From Pseudomonas sp. (lineage in GTDB: Bacteria; Pseudomonadota; Gammaproteobacteria; Pseudomonadales; Pseudomonadaceae): a DNA stretch of 64,000 nucleotides. A program made the translations under genes and the position numbers. The stretch is from contig VMRT01000021.1 in assembly GCA_007713455.1 (NCBI GenBank), positions 1 through 64,000 of the forward strand, in the 5' to 3' direction. Below the pieces are notes generated by a model that did no database searches, was not told where the DNA came from, and saw only the letters and a program-made list of their open reading frames with translations. Shown one piece after another: positions 57,776 through 64,000 of the stretch; the stretch's first letter is position 1; each line of letters opens with the position of its first letter.

Positions 57776-59035
57776 ATGAAAACAATCGCAGTCATCGGTG
57801 GCGGTATCACCGGCGTCACCACCGCCTATGCCCTGGCCAAGCGCGGCTTCGCCGTCACCCTGCTGGAAAAGCACCGCTACGCGGCGATGGAAACCTCGTT
57901 CGCCAATGGCGGCCAGCTGTCGGCCTCCAATGCCGAGGTCTGGAACCACTGGTCGACCATCGTCAAAGGACTCAAGTGGATGCTCAAGAGCGATGCGCCG
58001 CTGCTGGTCAATCCCAAGCCCAGCTGGCACAAGCTCTCCTGGTTCGCCGAGTTCATCGGCTCGATCCCCAACTACCGGCAGAACACCGTCGAGACCGCAC
58101 GCCTGGCGATCGCCGCGCGCGAGCACCTGTTCGCCTGGGCGGAAGCCGAAGGCATCGACTTCGACCTGAAGAAGAAGGGCATCCTGCACATCTACCGCGA
58201 CAAGGCCGGCTTCGAGCATGCCGGCCAGGTCTCGCGCCTGCTTGCCGAAGGCGGCCTGCCGCGGCGCAGCGTGACGCCGGAGGAGATGCGCGCCATCGAG
58301 CCGACTTTGGCCGGCACCTACTACGGTGGCTACTTCACCGAGTGCGACTCCACCGGCGACATCCACAAGTTCACCCATGGCCTGGCCATGGCGATCGAGC
58401 GCCTCGGCGTGCGTTGCCTGTATGGCGAGGACGTGCAGGCGGTGGCTACCGACGGCAAGCGCGCGACCGTGACGCTGGGCGGCGTTGCCGGTGGCGAGCG
58501 TCTGGAGTTCGACGGCCTGGTGATCTGCGCCGGCACCGCCAGCCGTGGACTAGCCGCGCAGCTCGGCGACCGGGTGAACATCTATCCGGTCAAGGGCTAT
58601 TCGATCACGGTCAACCTGGCCGACGAAGTCAGCCGCGCCTCGGCACCCATCGTCAGCCTGCTCGACGATGAAACCAAGCTGGTCAGCAGCCGCCTCGGCG
58701 ACGACCGCTTCCGCGTCGCCGGCACCGCCGAGTTCAACGGCTACAACCGCGACATCCGTGCCGATCGCATCCGCCCGCTGGTGGACTGGGTCAACCAGTG
58801 CTTCCCCGGCGTCAACACCCGCAGCGTAGTGCCCTGGGCCGGCCTGCGGCCGATGATGCCGAACATGATGCCCAAGGTCGGCCGCGGCAGTTCGCCCTGC
58901 GTGTTCTACAACACCGGCCACGGGCACCTGGGCTGGACGCTGAGCGCGATCACCGCGGACATGGTCGGTGACGTGGTGGCGCAAAGCCTGGGCCGGCCGG
59001 CTCCGGTCGCATCCGGGCAGACAGCCGTCGCCTAA
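57776..59035 (+). CDS. dadA: FAD-dependent D-amino acid dehydrogenase-like oxidoreductase
   Basis: The 419-residue flavoprotein begins with MKTIAVIGGGITGVTTAYALAKRGFAVTLLEKHRYAAMETSFANGGQLSASNAEVWNHW, containing the GxGxxG FAD motif and the S-F-A-N-G-G-Q motif of DadA. It ends with GHGHLGWTLSAITADMVGDVVAQS, typical of the DadA/glycine oxidase class. It oxidises an amino acid to a 2-oxo acid, passing electrons to the quinone pool in the inner membrane. The glycine riboswitch directly upstream suggests that glycine, or a D-amino acid mimic of glycine surplus, is the relevant substrate. Confidence 0.9.
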   Translation: MKTIAVIGGGITGVTTAYALAKRGFAVTLLEKHRYAAMETSFANGGQLSASNAEVWNHWSTIVKGLKWMLKSDAPLLVNPKPSWHKLSWFAEFIGSIPNYRQNTVETARLAIAAREHLFAWAEAEGIDFDLKKKGILHIYRDKAGFEHAGQVSRLLAEGGLPRRSVTPEEMRAIEPTLAGTYYGGYFTECDSTGDIHKFTHGLAMAIERLGVRCLYGEDVQAVATDGKRATVTLGGVAGGERLEFDGLVICAGTASRGLAAQLGDRVNIYPVKGYSITVNLADEVSRASAPIVSLLDDETKLVSSRLGDDRFRVAGTAEFNGYNRDIRADRIRPLVDWVNQCFPGVNTRSVVPWAGLRPMMPNMMPKVGRGSSPCVFYNTGHGHLGWTLSAITADMVGDVVAQSLGRPAPVASGQTAVA

Positions 59036-59347: not shown

Positions 59348-60265
59348 TCAGCTCGGATGTTTCAAGCTGTACATCCGGCATTCGGCGAGCAGCGCCAGCA
59401 GGTTGGGGTCGCGCTCCTTGGCCTTGAGGAACACCACGCCGATATGCTGCTGCAGGTGATAACGCGCCTGTAGTGGGATCAGCCGCACCCGCGATTCGTA
59501 GACCATGCCCACGCGCCCCGGAAGCAGCGCGTAGCCGACCCCGGAATTGACCATGCTGAGCAGGGTGAAGATGTCGTTCACCTGCATCGCCACCTTCGGC
59601 TCGAAGCCCGCCAGCTGGAACACCCGGTTGCCGTCCTGGTGGGTGGCGAAGCCCTGCGACAGGGTGATGAAAGTGGCGTCGCGCAGGTCGCTGAGGTCCA
59701 CCTCGCTCTGATTGGCGAAGGGCGAGTCGGCCGGCGCGGCGAGGAAGATGTCGTCGGAAAACAGCTGCACCTGCGCGCAGTCCGGATCGGCGACGCTCTC
59801 GTTGAGCGACACCAGAATGGCGTCCAGCTCCATGTTCTTCAGCTTGTAGAGCAGGTCGACGTTGGAGCCGAGGATCAGGTCGATGTTGAGTTCGCTGCGG
59901 CGCAGTTTCAGACCCATGATCAGCTGCGGCACGGTCTTCACCGTCAGCGAGTACAGCGCGCCGAGCTTGAAGCGCTCGGCCGAGAAGCCGGCGGCTTCGC
60001 GGGTCTGGCGCACCGTCTCAAGCACGTCCTTGACCAGCTGCTGGGCGCGCTCTTCCAGCACGTAGGCGCTTTCCAGCGGGATCAGGTTGCGCCCCTCGTG
60101 CTTGAACAGCGGGCAGCGCAGCGCGCTTTCCAGGGAGTGAATGGCGCGGTGCACGCTGACGTTGCTGGTGTTCAGCTCCACCGCCGCCTTGCCCAGATTG
60201 CCGCTGCGCATGAAGGCCAGAAACACTTCCAGCTTCTTCAGGGTCAGTTCTTCGTCGATCTGCAT
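59348..60265 (-). CDS. LysR-family regulator, MdcR-like
   Basis: The 305-residue LysR protein has its helix-turn-helix at about residues 8-52 (LKKLEVFLAFMRSGNLGKAAVELNTSNVSVHRAIHSLESALRCPLF). It resembles the malonate regulators MdcR of Pseudomonas, which lie close to the mdc operon. Here it is about 4 kb beyond madM, after the frameshifted chemoreceptor and dadA, and on the opposite strand. The ATG at 60265 fits the family start MQIDEELTLKKLEVF. Malonate sensing is inferred. Confidence 0.7.
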   Translation of the reverse strand: MQIDEELTLKKLEVFLAFMRSGNLGKAAVELNTSNVSVHRAIHSLESALRCPLFKHEGRNLIPLESAYVLEERAQQLVKDVLETVRQTREAAGFSAERFKLGALYSLTVKTVPQLIMGLKLRRSELNIDLILGSNVDLLYKLKNMELDAILVSLNESVADPDCAQVQLFSDDIFLAAPADSPFANQSEVDLSDLRDATFITLSQGFATHQDGNRVFQLAGFEPKVAMQVNDIFTLLSMVNSGVGYALLPGRVGMVYESRVRLIPLQARYHLQQHIGVVFLKAKERDPNLLALLAECRMYSLKHPS

Positions 60266-60323
60266 GGCTTTGGCTCCGCGGGCGGGTCGACGATTATGCC
60301 GGACCAGGACGCACTGCGGCGCC

Positions 60324-60965
60324 TCACCAGCGCAGCAGGCGCGGCCCGAGGAGTGTACCGAGCACGCCGGGCAGCAAGATGCCGAGCAGGTACCAGAGCG
60401 CCCAGAACGGCACCGCCATTTCCGGGCAGTGCAGGCTGTAGGCGAGGGCCGCGATGCTGCCGGCGAGCAGGCCGGCAGCGCCGCCGGCCAGGCGCGGGCG
60501 CGTCGGCGCCAGCCCGCGCAACGCCCAGAACGCGGCGATGAAGGCGGGCATCGACAGCAGCACAATATTCGCCAGGCACTCGCGCCAGGTGTTGCCGAGC
60601 AGCAGCGGCATGCCTGCGTCGGCCGGGGCGGTAATCAGAATCACAAGTGCGACGACCCAGACGATCACTACCGGCGCCGCCAGCAGCGCCCAGCTACGAC
60701 CCACCTGCGTGCCGGGGCGGGCCATGCGCGCGGTCAGCAACAGGGCACCGAAGAGCAGGGTCGCCGGCAGTGCCAGCTTGGCCCAGAACAGTGGTGTCCC
60801 GGCGATGGTCGCCAGGTCGGCGCGAATGCCGTACGCGGTCACGATCAGCAACAGCGCGCCGGCCAGGCCGCACAGCAGCGCCGTGGCGAAGCGCTTGGCG
60901 AGGACGTGCCGGTCCACCGGTGCAACCTCGCTGGCGAGTAGGGCGATCAGGTCATCGGTTTTCAT
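60324..60965 (-). CDS. nrsF: NrsF-type membrane anti-sigma factor (DUF1109)
   Basis: The 213-residue protein starts with a short cytoplasmic part ([26 protein letters not shown]) and has six hydrophobic segments. It matches DUF1109/NrsF, a membrane anti-sigma factor that holds SigF in Caulobacter and relatives. Its ATG overlaps the sigF stop (ATGA). Such proteins are thought to respond to metal or oxidative stress; conserved cysteines in the loops (e.g. SLHCPEMAVPF) may act as sensors. Confidence 0.85.
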   Translation of the reverse strand: MKTDDLIALLASEVAPVDRHVLAKRFATALLCGLAGALLLIVTAYGIRADLATIAGTPLFWAKLALPATLLFGALLLTARMARPGTQVGRSWALLAAPVVIVWVVALVILITAPADAGMPLLLGNTWRECLANIVLLSMPAFIAAFWALRGLAPTRPRLAGGAAGLLAGSIAALAYSLHCPEMAVPFWALWYLLGILLPGVLGTLLGPRLLRW

Positions 60966-61531
60966 GCGCCACCTCGAATCTTCGCCGCCAGGGCCTTGAG
61001 CCCGCGATGGATGCCGACCTTGATCGCCGAGCTGGAAAGCCCGGTCAGACGCGCAGTTTCTTCCACCGAGCGGCCCTCCAGTTTGACGTGAACGATGGGT
61101 AGTCGCTGGCGTGGCGGCAGCTGCTGGAGCAGCTTGCCCAGGTCGCGGCGGGCCTCGGCCTGCGCGTTGTCCTGTACGGCGAGCAGCTCGTCGGCCTCGT
61201 CCAGCCAGTCCGTTTGCGCGGCCTGACGGCCACGGGTGCGGTAGTGGTCGGCCAGCTTGTAGCGACAGATCGCCTGCACCCAGACCGTCAGCGGCTGCTC
61301 AGCGCGATAGGTCTGCCGCGCATTGTGCACCGCCAGCAGTACCTCCTGCAGAGCGTCCTCCAGCTCGCTCGACTGCGACAGGCGGCGACGCAGAAAACCG
61401 CGCAGATGGCCGCCGAGCTGGTCGAGGAATGCCCGGTAGGCCTTCGCATCGCCATCCAGCCCGCGCAGCAGCAGCGCACGCAGCTCGTTCTCGCGGGCCT
61501 GGAGTGTCTCCTGAGAGGTAGTTCGTTCCAT
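60962..61531 (-). CDS. sigF: ECF sigma factor SigF
   Basis: The 189-residue sigma-70-type factor has region 2 ([63 protein letters not shown]) and region 4 ([45 protein letters not shown]). It is the partner of the downstream NrsF. The assigned ATG at 61531 lies inside an exact GTAACC-N16-CGAA promoter-like motif (61522-61547, minus strand) and lacks a strong ribosome site, so the true start may differ; the region before [12 protein letters not shown] is poorly conserved. Confidence 0.85.
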
Positions 61532-61547
61532 CGGCTGCTCTGGTTAC
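61522..61547 (-). promoter_or_regulatory. SigF-type promoter motif overlapping the sigF start
   Basis: On the minus strand GTAACC (61547-61542) is followed, after exactly 16 bases, by CGAA (61525-61522). The ATG assigned to sigF lies within the spacer. This is the same motif as at 61636-61661 and equals the consensus described for Caulobacter SigF-controlled promoters, suggesting autoregulation. It may instead mean the sigF start codon is placed wrongly, or that the match is a coincidence. Confidence 0.5.
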
Positions 61548-61635
61548 AGGTGGAACCGCGAAATGTCCGCCGCCCGTCGGCCAGGGTCACGGTAGGGACG
61601 TCGCGAGAAAATCTCAAAATAATTTTTCGCCGACT

Positions 61636-61661
61636 GTAACCACCACGACTGACGCAGCGAA
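61636..61661 (+). promoter_or_regulatory. SigF-type promoter of the buf operon
   Basis: GTAACC at 61636-61641 and CGAA at 61658-61661 are separated by exactly 16 bases and point at bufA, whose ATG begins 62 bases after the CGAA. With sigF directly beside it, this is the expected site for SigF-dependent expression of the metallophore operon. Confidence 0.8.
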
Positions 61662-61722
61662 TTACCTCACGAGCCATCTGCAGATTCGCCGATGGCCACT
61701 CAACGATTGCGGAGAATCCAAC

Positions 61723-61995
61723 ATGAAGGCTCTCAACCTTGCGGCTGCCGCCATTGCCCTGGCTTCGATCGCCGCTGGCGCTCAGGCAGGCGAGAACGAC
61801 AAAGGCGACATGGAAAAATGCTACGGCGTCGCGCTGGCCGGACAGAACGATTGCAAGGCCGGTGCCGGCACCAGTTGCGCCGGCAGTTCCAAGCGCGATT
61901 ACCAAGGCAACGCCTGGAAACTGGTGCCCGTCGGTACCTGCACCTCGATCGAGACGCCCAAGGGAATGGGCTCGCTGACGCCGGTCGAGCGCTGA
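61723..61995 (+). CDS. bufA: Bufferin-type precursor (DUF2282)
   Basis: The 90-residue protein has a Sec signal peptide (residues 1-22) and a mature part with four cysteines, at residues 33, 44, 52 and 73, spaced as in the DUF2282 family ([14 protein letters not shown], then S-C-A-G-S-S and G-T-C). In related bufferins a partner enzyme turns two of the four cysteines into thiooxazole rings that bind copper in the periplasm. It is followed 7 bp on by the DUF692 gene, then by its helper, so the complete set is present. A SigF-type promoter lies upstream. Confidence 0.88.
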
Positions 61996-62002
61996 GCCTA
62001 GC

Positions 62003-62839
62003 GTGCCGGCCATGCAGATTCTCGGAGCAGGACTAGGGCTAAAACCCGAGCATTACACGGACGCCTGCGCCTGCGTGGCGGACGGGCTGTGGTTCGAGGT
62101 CCATCCGGAAAACTACATGGTCGGCGGCGGCCCACGGCTCGACTGGCTGGAGGCAGTGGGCGCGCAGCACCCGCTGTCGCTGCACGGTGTGTCGCTGTCG
62201 CTGGCTGCCGACTGTGCGCCGGATGAGACGCACCTGCAGCGGCTCAAGGCGCTGGCCGAACGTGTGCGGCCGGCGTTGATCTCCGAACACCTGGCCTGGT
62301 CGAGCTGGCGCGGAAATTACCATCCTGATCTGTTGCCTTTTCCGCGGACCACGGCGGCGTTGAGGCGAATCGCGGCGAATATCGAGCGCACCCAGGAGAT
62401 GCTTGGGCAGCGCATCGCCATCGAGAATCCCAGCCATTACCTGCGCTTCGAGCAGCACCAGTGGGACGAGATCGATTTTCTCGCCGAGCTCAGCCAGCGC
62501 ACCGGCTGCGGCCTGCTGCTGGACGTCAACAACGTGCAGGTCAGCGCGCACAACCTGGGCTTCGATGCGGCCGCCTACCTGCGGCGCTTTCCCGCCGCGC
62601 CGATCATGGAGGTCCACCTGGCCGGGCACAGCCAGGATGACGCATCCTCGCTGCTGATCGACACCCACGATGCACCGGTGGACGCGGCGGTCTGGGCGCT
62701 CTATCGGCAACTGATCGAGCGTATCGGCCCGCGCCCGACGCTGATCGAACGCGACGACGAGCTGCCCGCCTTCGAGACGCTGCTGGCCGAGCGCACCCGC
62801 GCGCAGCAGGTGCTCGATGAAGTGAGGAGCTGGCAATGA
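62003..62839 (+). CDS. bufB: DUF692 multinuclear iron enzyme (bufferin-modifying)
   Basis: The 278-residue TIM-barrel protein (GTG start; an ATG three codons on at 62012 is an alternative) belongs to DUF692/MbnB. Likely metal ligands are in [54 protein letters not shown] and [11 protein letters not shown], in the order seen in MbnB-type enzymes. These use iron and oxygen to convert peptide cysteines into heterocycles. Here the precursor is BufA and the helper BufC. Confidence 0.9.
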
Positions 62840-63627
62840 GCGGCTCTCTGGCGGCATTTCAGGACGCCTTCGTCGCGGCGCTGACCGACGCGCCCGATAG
62901 TTCGGCGGGCGAGGTCGCTGAGCTGGTCGCGCAGCCGGGTTTCGCGGTCTACCGCAACACCCTGTCCAAGGGCTGTGTCGATGCGCTGCGCGCCAATTTC
63001 CCTGCCGTCGAACGACTGGTGGGGGAGGCGTGGTTTGCCGCCGCCGCGACGCTGTACGCGCGCGAAATGCTGCCGCGCAGTGGCCCGTTGCTTGAGTACG
63101 GTGAGGATTTTCCGGCGTTCCTGCAGGGCTTCGAACCGGCGCGCGAGCTGCCCTATCTGTCTGGCGTCGCGCTGTTGGACCGGCTCTGGCTCGAGGCATT
63201 CAGCGCCGTGGAGCAACCGGTCCTTGCGCTCGCTGCCCTGGCGACGCACACCCCGCAGCAGCTGGCCCGGCAGACGCTCGTTCCTCGCGCTGCGCTGCGC
63301 TGGCGGTGGTTCGTCGAACTGCCGGTGTACAGCATCTGGAGCTGCACCCGCGAGCAGCGCGAGGTGCCGCCGACGCTGGTCTGGCAAGGCGAAGGGGTAC
63401 TGCTGAGCCGAAGCGCCGGCCGCATCGGCTGGCAGCCGCTCGAACGCGGCGGCTGTACCTTTCTCGATGCCTGCGCCGCTGGCCGGTCGCTGGAGCAGGC
63501 AGCCGAACTGGCGCTGGCGGTACAGCCGCAACTCGACTTCAACGACCTGCTCGGCCGGCTGCTGGCGGCAGGCGCGTTCGCCGCGCTGGTGCCGACGACG
63601 CAATCCACATTGAGGAAACCGTCATGA
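62836..63627 (+). CDS. bufC: DUF2063 partner protein (BufC)
   Basis: The 263-residue protein starts with [76 protein letters not shown], the DUF2063 (HvfC/BufC) N-terminal domain, whose Y-R-N-x-x-x-x-x-x-x-x-A-L-x-x-x-F-P motif is typical. A C-terminal domain follows. It is the partner of DUF692 enzymes and probably presents the BufA precursor. Its ATG overlaps bufB by 4 bp. Confidence 0.88.
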
Positions 63628-64000
63628 ACGCCATGCACAACCTGCCGCTGCGTCTGCGTCAGCAATGGAACGGGGTCGCTCAGCGGTTGCAGCGGCTGCT
63701 CGGCGATTCGCTGCTGAATCTGCTGGCACGCTTGGCCATCGCGGCGATCTTCCTGCTCTCCGGGCGCACCAAGGTGAGCGGCGTGCTGGACATCACCCCG
63801 GGCACGTTCGAGCTGTTTCGCAGCGAGTACGCCTTGCCGTTACTGCCACCGCATGTCGCGGCGCACCTGGCCACCTATGCCGAGCACCTGTTCCCGCTGT
63901 TGCTGGTGCTCGGCCTGTTCACCCGGCTGTCGGCGCTGGCGCTGCTGCAGATGACGCTAGTGATCCAGCTGTTCGTCTACCCCGACGCCTGGTCGACTCA
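63624..64000 (+). CDS. DoxX-family membrane protein (partial at window end)
   Basis: The visible 125 residues start [51 protein letters not shown] and contain at least two hydrophobic segments. This matches the DoxX/DoxD small quinone-linked membrane family, which often follows bufABC. Its ATG overlaps the bufC stop (ATGA), so it belongs to the operon and may supply electrons or act in assembly. The C-terminus lies outside the window. Confidence 0.8.

Follow-up and report, generated by a model that had tools for sequence, protein, structure and literature searches.

A predicted SigF/NrsF-controlled bufferin operon in Stutzerimonas, with a sigma-F site that overlaps the sigF start codon

We analysed a stretch of 64,000 nucleotides from a genome deposited as Pseudomonas sp. 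(GenBank assembly GCA_007713455.1, contig VMRT01000021.1, positions 1 to 64,000, forward strand), here called the window, which carries the genes bufABCD at its far end and the divergent pair sigF-nrsF beside them. We conclude, with a probability of roughly 0.9, that these genes form a bufferin operon under SigF/NrsF control that responds to periplasmic metal stress, probably copper, by way of a thiooxazole-bearing BufA that binds copper. As a bufferin cluster, the locus is one more example of a family known by the thousand. New here is a sigma-F site that overlaps the sigF start codon and that may let SigF switch itself off. Statements about published systems refer to parts of the papers cited.

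The bufferin operon and its conservation

The genes, their families, the conserved residues, and the exact promoter sites with their conservation were observed directly. The features are given below by position.

60324..60965, minus strand: nrsF, membrane anti-sigma factor (NrsF/DUF1109; PF06532, 1.3e-73), with Cys130 and Cys180
60962..61531, minus strand: sigF, extracytoplasmic function (ECF) sigma factor of 189 amino acids, with Sigma70 regions 2 and 4 (Pfam)
61522..61547, minus strand: sigma-F site of sigF-nrsF, exact, GTAACC-N10-ATG-NNN-CGAA, with the sigF start codon between the elements
61589..61617, minus strand: candidate housekeeping promoter of sigF, TTGAGA-N17-TACCGT
61636..61661, plus strand: predicted sigma-F promoter of bufABCD, exact GTAACC-N16-CGAA, followed by TTA
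61723..61995, plus strand: bufA, Buf1 (DUF2282) precursor of 90 amino acids with Cys 33, 44, 52, and 73 (PF10048, 8.6e-26)
61723..61788, plus strand: first 22 residues of BufA, a likely Sec signal peptide with cleavage after AQA, judged by eye
62003..62839, plus strand: bufB, MNIO (formerly DUF692) bufferin maturase (PF05114, 3e-97; NF050167 above cut-off)
62836..63627, plus strand: bufC, DUF2063 partner protein (PF09836, 5.1e-21)
63624..64000, continuing to contig position 64085, plus strand: bufD, DoxX-family membrane protein (PF07681, 7.1e-18 for the part within the window)

The Pfam matches of the six genes all exceeded the curated cut-offs. In NCBIfam, BufB scored above the cut-off for BufB maturases (NF050167, 360 versus 310 bits), and the sigma factor above that of PRK12536 (286 versus 250 bits). 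An MNIO gene of bufferin type lies directly 3' of the precursor gene, and the gene order is bufABC, then DoxX. The start codon of bufB is GTG, with an alternative ATG three codons on, at 62012. When inspected by eye, the BufA N-terminus displayed Lys2, a hydrophobic stretch, and AQA. Judged by its sequence, the locus at 61723-64000 is a complete Buf1 bufferin cluster and an ordinary copy of a widespread operon.

An earlier note on this DNA had described a DUF2282 precursor with cysteines at 33, 44, 52, and 73, and a DUF692 enzyme, a DUF2063 partner, and a DoxX protein in an operon divergent from sigF-nrsF. The cysteine positions were exact in the bufA open reading frame (ORF), and the ORF calls and Pfam agreed on the remaining genes and their arrangement. 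The bufferin identity proposed there is borne out by the gene families and their conservation, which point to Buf1, and so is the completeness of the cluster, as the bufD ORF is cut by the window end but complete in the contig, with its stop at 64085. The same note held that few bufferins are known outside a handful of species, and this did not stand: DUF2282 occurred in 24 of 56 genus genomes (the host genome counted), 489 stretches encoded BufB relatives in the species-genome scan, and thousands of bufferins have been described, with sigma and NrsF genes reported in Buf1 clusters (PMC12452194).

The main comparison set consisted of 104 loci: the contig of the window (L002), 23 genus loci of 3.2 kb each, which end before bufD, and 80 loci from species genomes, the best 80 of the 489 stretches. 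The loci were picked by similarity, and some genus and named loci are probably from the same species. Matches were found for bufA and bufB in all 104 loci, for bufC in 103, for sigF and for nrsF in 94, and for bufD in 79. Among the best 80 of 489, the closest named BufB relatives were those of Stutzerimonas kunmingensis (96%) and S. chloritidismutans; the host genome belongs to Stutzerimonas and has one DUF2282 gene and one MNIO gene.

All four BufA cysteines were invariant among the 78 distinct proteins aligned, which came from the window and from the usable 99 of 103 other loci. In BufB, the MNIO ligand-type residues H61, H96, E141, D174, H205, D220, H222, and E249 were kept in 88 of 88 distinct proteins (102 of 103 other loci usable), and the LDVNN and DTH motifs, which contain N176/N177, D220, and H222, align with PDB 3BWW. 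In HvfB, replacing N175, D242, or H244 by alanine gives inactive variants (PMC13419390); the correspondence between BufB and HvfB numbering was made in the present analysis. Of the NrsF cysteines, Cys130 was kept in 81 of 81 and Cys180 in 80 of 80 distinct proteins (91 of 103 other loci usable). They correspond to C131 and C181 of Caulobacter NrsF, and replacing these two together shifts SigF to the soluble fraction (PMC3511200).

Sigma-F sites in the divergent gap

The SigF promoter motif of Caulobacter is GTAACC-N16-CGAA (PMC3511200). The window contained two exact copies, both within the divergent gap between bufA and sigF and facing opposite ways. With one mismatch allowed, there were six matches in the window versus 1.49 expected, and none of 100 shuffles reached six. 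On the bufA side, the exact site was present in 101 of the 104 loci (missing in L075, L080, and L099), and in 93 of these 101 the next three bases were CTA or TTA. In the window, 61 bases separate the end of this site from the bufA ATG; the transcription start of Caulobacter CC3254 has been mapped at -61 (PMC3511200).

In the whole genome, the plain pattern GTAACC-N15-17-CGAA gave 24 matches versus 29 for the backwards control. Since this count does not exceed that of the control, only position and conservation give the two sites meaning. A family-wide pattern search for the site (78 of 298 genomes matched) likewise contains chance matches, and its backwards control matches too. A wider SigF regulon was considered and set aside: beyond both window sites, the sole exact match in the genome to the extended motif (CGAANTA) lies inside a PIN-like reading frame.

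SigF control of the buf operon, which the earlier note had proposed, is well supported as read from the exact sigma-F sites, the protein families, and the conservation across loci. Nine loci (L068, L075, L080, L081, L082, L085, L095, L102, and L104) carry a buf operon with no sigF or nrsF match within the locus. Seven of these nine retain the exact site before bufA, and SigF should therefore act there from elsewhere.

The sigF start codon lies inside its own sigma-F site

No sigF match was found in 10 of the 104 loci, in one of which (L101) the contig ends at that point. Among the 94 loci with sigF, an exact site lay at most 150 bases from the gene in 88 and did not in six. The sigF ATG was at base 17 of the site, between the -35 and -10 elements, in 81 of the 88, including the window; the remaining seven were L073, L074, L087, L108, L113, L116, and L117. 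In L073 and L074 (P. morbosilactucae and P. chlororaphis), a short duplication places the ATG 8 bases past CGAA, so that the sigma-F site would yield a leaderless sigF mRNA.

The codons that follow the start are unusual. With no motif filter, all 87 loci with a sigF alignment that begins at residue 1 had CGA as codon 3, and 76 of these 87 had ACT as codon 4; in sigF codons 20-185, CGA makes up 5.8% of arginine codons and ACT 7.8% of threonine codons. The 63 distinct sigF 5' regions have the ten motif bases exact by selection, so codon 3 is uninformative there. Codon 4, however, had T as its third base in 61 of these 63 although its second base varies. The constraint reads as the extended -10 element CGAANTA, as at bufA.

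At sigF codons 7 and 8, the first two bases were largely kept and the third was variable. For this reason the stretch looks translated, and the ATG at 61531 looks like the true start. A crude match found no Shine-Dalgarno sequence before the position of this ATG in 32 of the 63 regions. Among the titles and abstract openings listed in searches of open-licence papers, none concerned a SigF site overlapping the sigF start codon.

Proposed wiring of sigF and nrsF

Because the ATG lies inside the site, transcription from the site must begin after it. With a spacing of about 5-9 bases between CGAA and the start, as for ECF promoters, the predicted 5' end lies near 61515; that of the bufABCD transcript is predicted at about 61668. 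The window sigF has no in-frame ATG, GTG, or TTG after codon 1 before codon 68, and the nrsF ATG is preceded by GAGGTGG. A SigF-driven transcript should therefore give NrsF without SigF. Shine-Dalgarno-like matches preceded nrsF in 83 of 93 loci. In the clade of the window, then, the SigF-driven transcript could encode NrsF but not full-length SigF, and SigF would consequently need an upstream promoter.

We propose, tentatively and at somewhat less than even odds, that Stutzerimonas, Pseudomonas, and some Burkholderiales have a SigF-dependent sigF-nrsF promoter arranged around the start codon of sigF, by which active SigF would make NrsF and not itself, while SigF would come only from an upstream housekeeping promoter. 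If this is true, the bufferin response would be a self-limiting pulse and not a self-amplifying switch. The earlier note had placed a 'sigma switch' directly beside the operon; the sigF-nrsF pair is indeed there, but its wiring looks unlike what a positive switch needs. The overlap of site and start codon makes negative feedback in this pseudomonad metal-stress ECF system cheaply testable, and the sigF wiring is what would be worth most at the bench.

Some loci carry nrsF without a preceding sigF. In L084 and L086 (Collimonas and Trinickia), nrsF is the first gene behind the site. The loci L089, L091, L092, and L093 (P. ceruminis, P. alcaligenes, P. otitidis, and one metagenome-assembled genome) are nearly identical and have bufA and nrsF duplicated: the first set contains sigF with a one-mismatch site (GTAACT) and the first bufA, and the second set, 4 kb away, pairs the second bufA with a further nrsF that stands alone behind an exact site. 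Lone nrsF genes behind exact sites support SigF control of nrsF, as far as gene arrangement can indicate it. A loss of nrsF from beside sigF in the P. otitidis group was considered but proved wrong, as the records carry two nrsF genes (behind L089 and L091) or three (behind L092), one of them just past the locus end, right after sigF. Thus, nrsF was added and sigF was not moved. Between the two sets (L092 1-4800; also in L089, L091, and L093) lie a chemoreceptor-like and an HD-GYP-like gene, identified by eye.

The putative upstream promoter is TTGAGA-N17-TACCGT at 61589..61617. Its motif, TTGAGR-N16-18-TAMCGT, occurred in 34 of 64 distinct related regions and in none of the 64 on the other strand, a count that is partly circular, as the sequences counted were those of the alignment in which the motif had first been spotted by eye. 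On the sigF strand, 44 of 64 regions reached a general sigma-70 score of at least 8 of 12, compared with 16 of 64 on the opposite strand and about 38% of shuffles; at least 9 of 12 was reached in 2 of 64 regions versus about 8% of shuffles. The consensus scan called no such promoter, and the sequence stays a candidate.

The logic proposed here has a counterpart in sigH-rshA of C. glutamicum, where housekeeping promoters serve the sigma and anti-sigma genes and a sigma-dependent promoter serves the anti-sigma gene only (PMC3489674). That system belongs to another organism and signal, whereas the promoter proposed in the window overlaps the sigma start codon itself and is predicted from sequence. 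Two promoters at one ECF gene with different products, as likewise proposed for the window, are found at Streptomyces sigR, but there the sigma-dependent promoter lies upstream and gives a longer, unstable SigR (PMC4921905), whereas in the window it would direct transcription from downstream of the start codon.

The possibility exists that sigF is subject to ordinary positive autoregulation: translation of the SigF-driven transcripts could begin at a non-AUG codon inside the gene, around codon 9 or 10, or at a start that escaped recognition, and so yield SigF as well. Of the 63 distinct 5' regions, 53 had an in-frame ATG, GTG, or TTG within codons 6-25, many from Pseudomonas included, so short SigF forms are possible there, which speaks against negative feedback as a general rule. 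Codon 10 was TTG in 33 of 63, compared with 15.4% of leucine codons in codons 20-185; with TTG frequent at codon 20 as well (24 of 63), however, codon 10 does not stand out, and as the window clade has CTC there, it was rejected as the usual SigF start. The window offers no such internal start after codon 1 and before codon 68, and codons 7-8, which look translated, lie upstream of any start of this kind. A phylum sample comprised 30 loci, the best matches among those in 81 of 398 genomes; one of the 30 had no nrsF match to the window protein, and 11 had an exact site before sigF. Five of these 11, one being the window, had an in-frame ATG at offset 16, and the other six offered an available sigF start codon at offset 37-45, downstream of the site; two of the six (L150 and L161) also had in-frame start codons inside it. 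Negative feedback would therefore be limited to some lineages. In Caulobacter, moreover, copper induces sigF and nrsF to about the same extent (PMC8224329), again a point against the generality of negative feedback. On balance we consider positive autoregulation somewhat doubtful, though a serious contender.

It is also conceivable that the site at the sigF start is inactive as a promoter, a relic or a coincidence of coding, since closely related sequences share it by descent. The unfiltered frequencies of CGA at codon 3 and ACT at codon 4, far above the usage later in the gene, and the fixed third base of codon 4 beside a varying second base argue against this, as do the nrsF genes that stand behind exact sites without a preceding sigF in L084, L086, and L089/L091/L092/L093. 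An inactive site is thus unlikely.

Proposed mechanism and signal

The closest known counterpart is Caulobacter CC3252-CC3257 (sigF-nrsF and the bufferin 1 operon), with the same six genes and the same promoter motif as the window (PMC3511200). Caulobacter differs in having a second buf operon and a sulfoxide-reductase (MsrPQ-like) pair in the regulon (PMC3511200, PMC8224329), whereas the window genome has a single gene each for DUF2282 and MNIO. In Caulobacter, copper induces the SigF regulon, which includes DUF2282, DUF692, and DoxX genes, and a strain with sigF::Tn5 is sensitive to copper (PMC8224329). Bufferin 1 has been assigned 5-thiooxazole (PMC12668002), and the central cysteines are stated to be the modified ones (PMC12452194). 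Relatives are reported to bind copper and to protect against it (PMC8224329, PMC12452194). The Pseudomonas fluorescens Pep1 cluster, reported in 2021, has the same DUF2282, DUF692, DUF2063, and DoxX genes as the window, with no difference seen in these four in the part of the source referred to (PMC8719888).

By analogy with Caulobacter and other bufferins, from which we infer the inducer, the modification, and copper binding, the system may work as follows. Periplasmic metal stress, probably copper, would disturb NrsF via its two conserved cysteines and free SigF, which would then transcribe bufABCD from the site at 61636. BufB with BufC would oxidise the central BufA cysteines 44 and 52 to thiooxazoles in the cytoplasm, and the outer cysteines 33 and 73 would form a disulphide after Sec export. 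The modified BufA would bind copper in the periplasm, with DoxX (bufD) in some helper role. If cut after AQA, mature BufA has a calculated mass of 6993.26 Da when reduced and unmodified, which would fall to 6985.19 Da with two thiooxazoles and to 6983.18 Da with the disulphide in addition; the modified form would be expected to absorb near 305 nm (PMC12668002). Thiooxazole formation and copper induction are carried over here from Caulobacter bufferin 1 and the Caulobacter SigF regulon.

Several observations weigh against this reading. Four proteins fell below their NCBIfam cut-offs: NrsF (NF042994, 150 versus 300), BufA (BufA2 model, 27.6 versus 60, with no Buf1 model matched), BufC (HvfC, 19.7 versus 142), and the window part of BufD (HvfX, 45.2 versus 80). 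The nrsF that follows the ECF sigma gene does have both conserved cysteines. Copper, furthermore, is not the sole possible signal, as SigF/NrsF elsewhere answers chromate and cadmium (Caulobacter, PMC3511200) and reactive chlorine (PMC5748585). SigF could accordingly drive a defence against oxidants or reactive chlorine, with BufA serving chiefly to scavenge oxidants or a metal other than copper, and copper being a side effect. In Azospira suillum, SigF/NrsF controls a hypochlorite-scavenging peptide and YedY1 (PMC5748585), and the title of a further report states that resistance to hypochlorous acid is regulated by an ECF sigma/anti-sigma system in another genus. The genes adjoining sigF-nrsF, however, are the bufferin set, and the single further extended sigma-F motif of the genome falls in the PIN-like frame (mrpX and yedY were not searched for). 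As copper induction and copper sensitivity have also been demonstrated in Caulobacter, it is very unlikely that oxidant defence is the main function of the operon.

Neighbouring genes and minor variants

Beyond nrsF, the window encodes a LysR-type regulator (59348-60268) and a D-amino acid dehydrogenase (57776-59035; NF009074, 741 bits), with no bufferin link seen for either. Contig positions 64873-68527 (L002 8874-12528), which lie downstream of bufD and run to the contig end, hold a gene for a LysM-like protein and a VgrG-like type VI secretion gene, both identified by eye. In S. chloritidismutans AW-1 and in G004, another genome of the species of the window, approximately 1.35 kb separates bufA from bufB (L041 3650-5000; L031). 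The insert in L041 contains a transposase-like ORF of 374 amino acids, recognised by eye, and the first four BufB residues are unmatched there.

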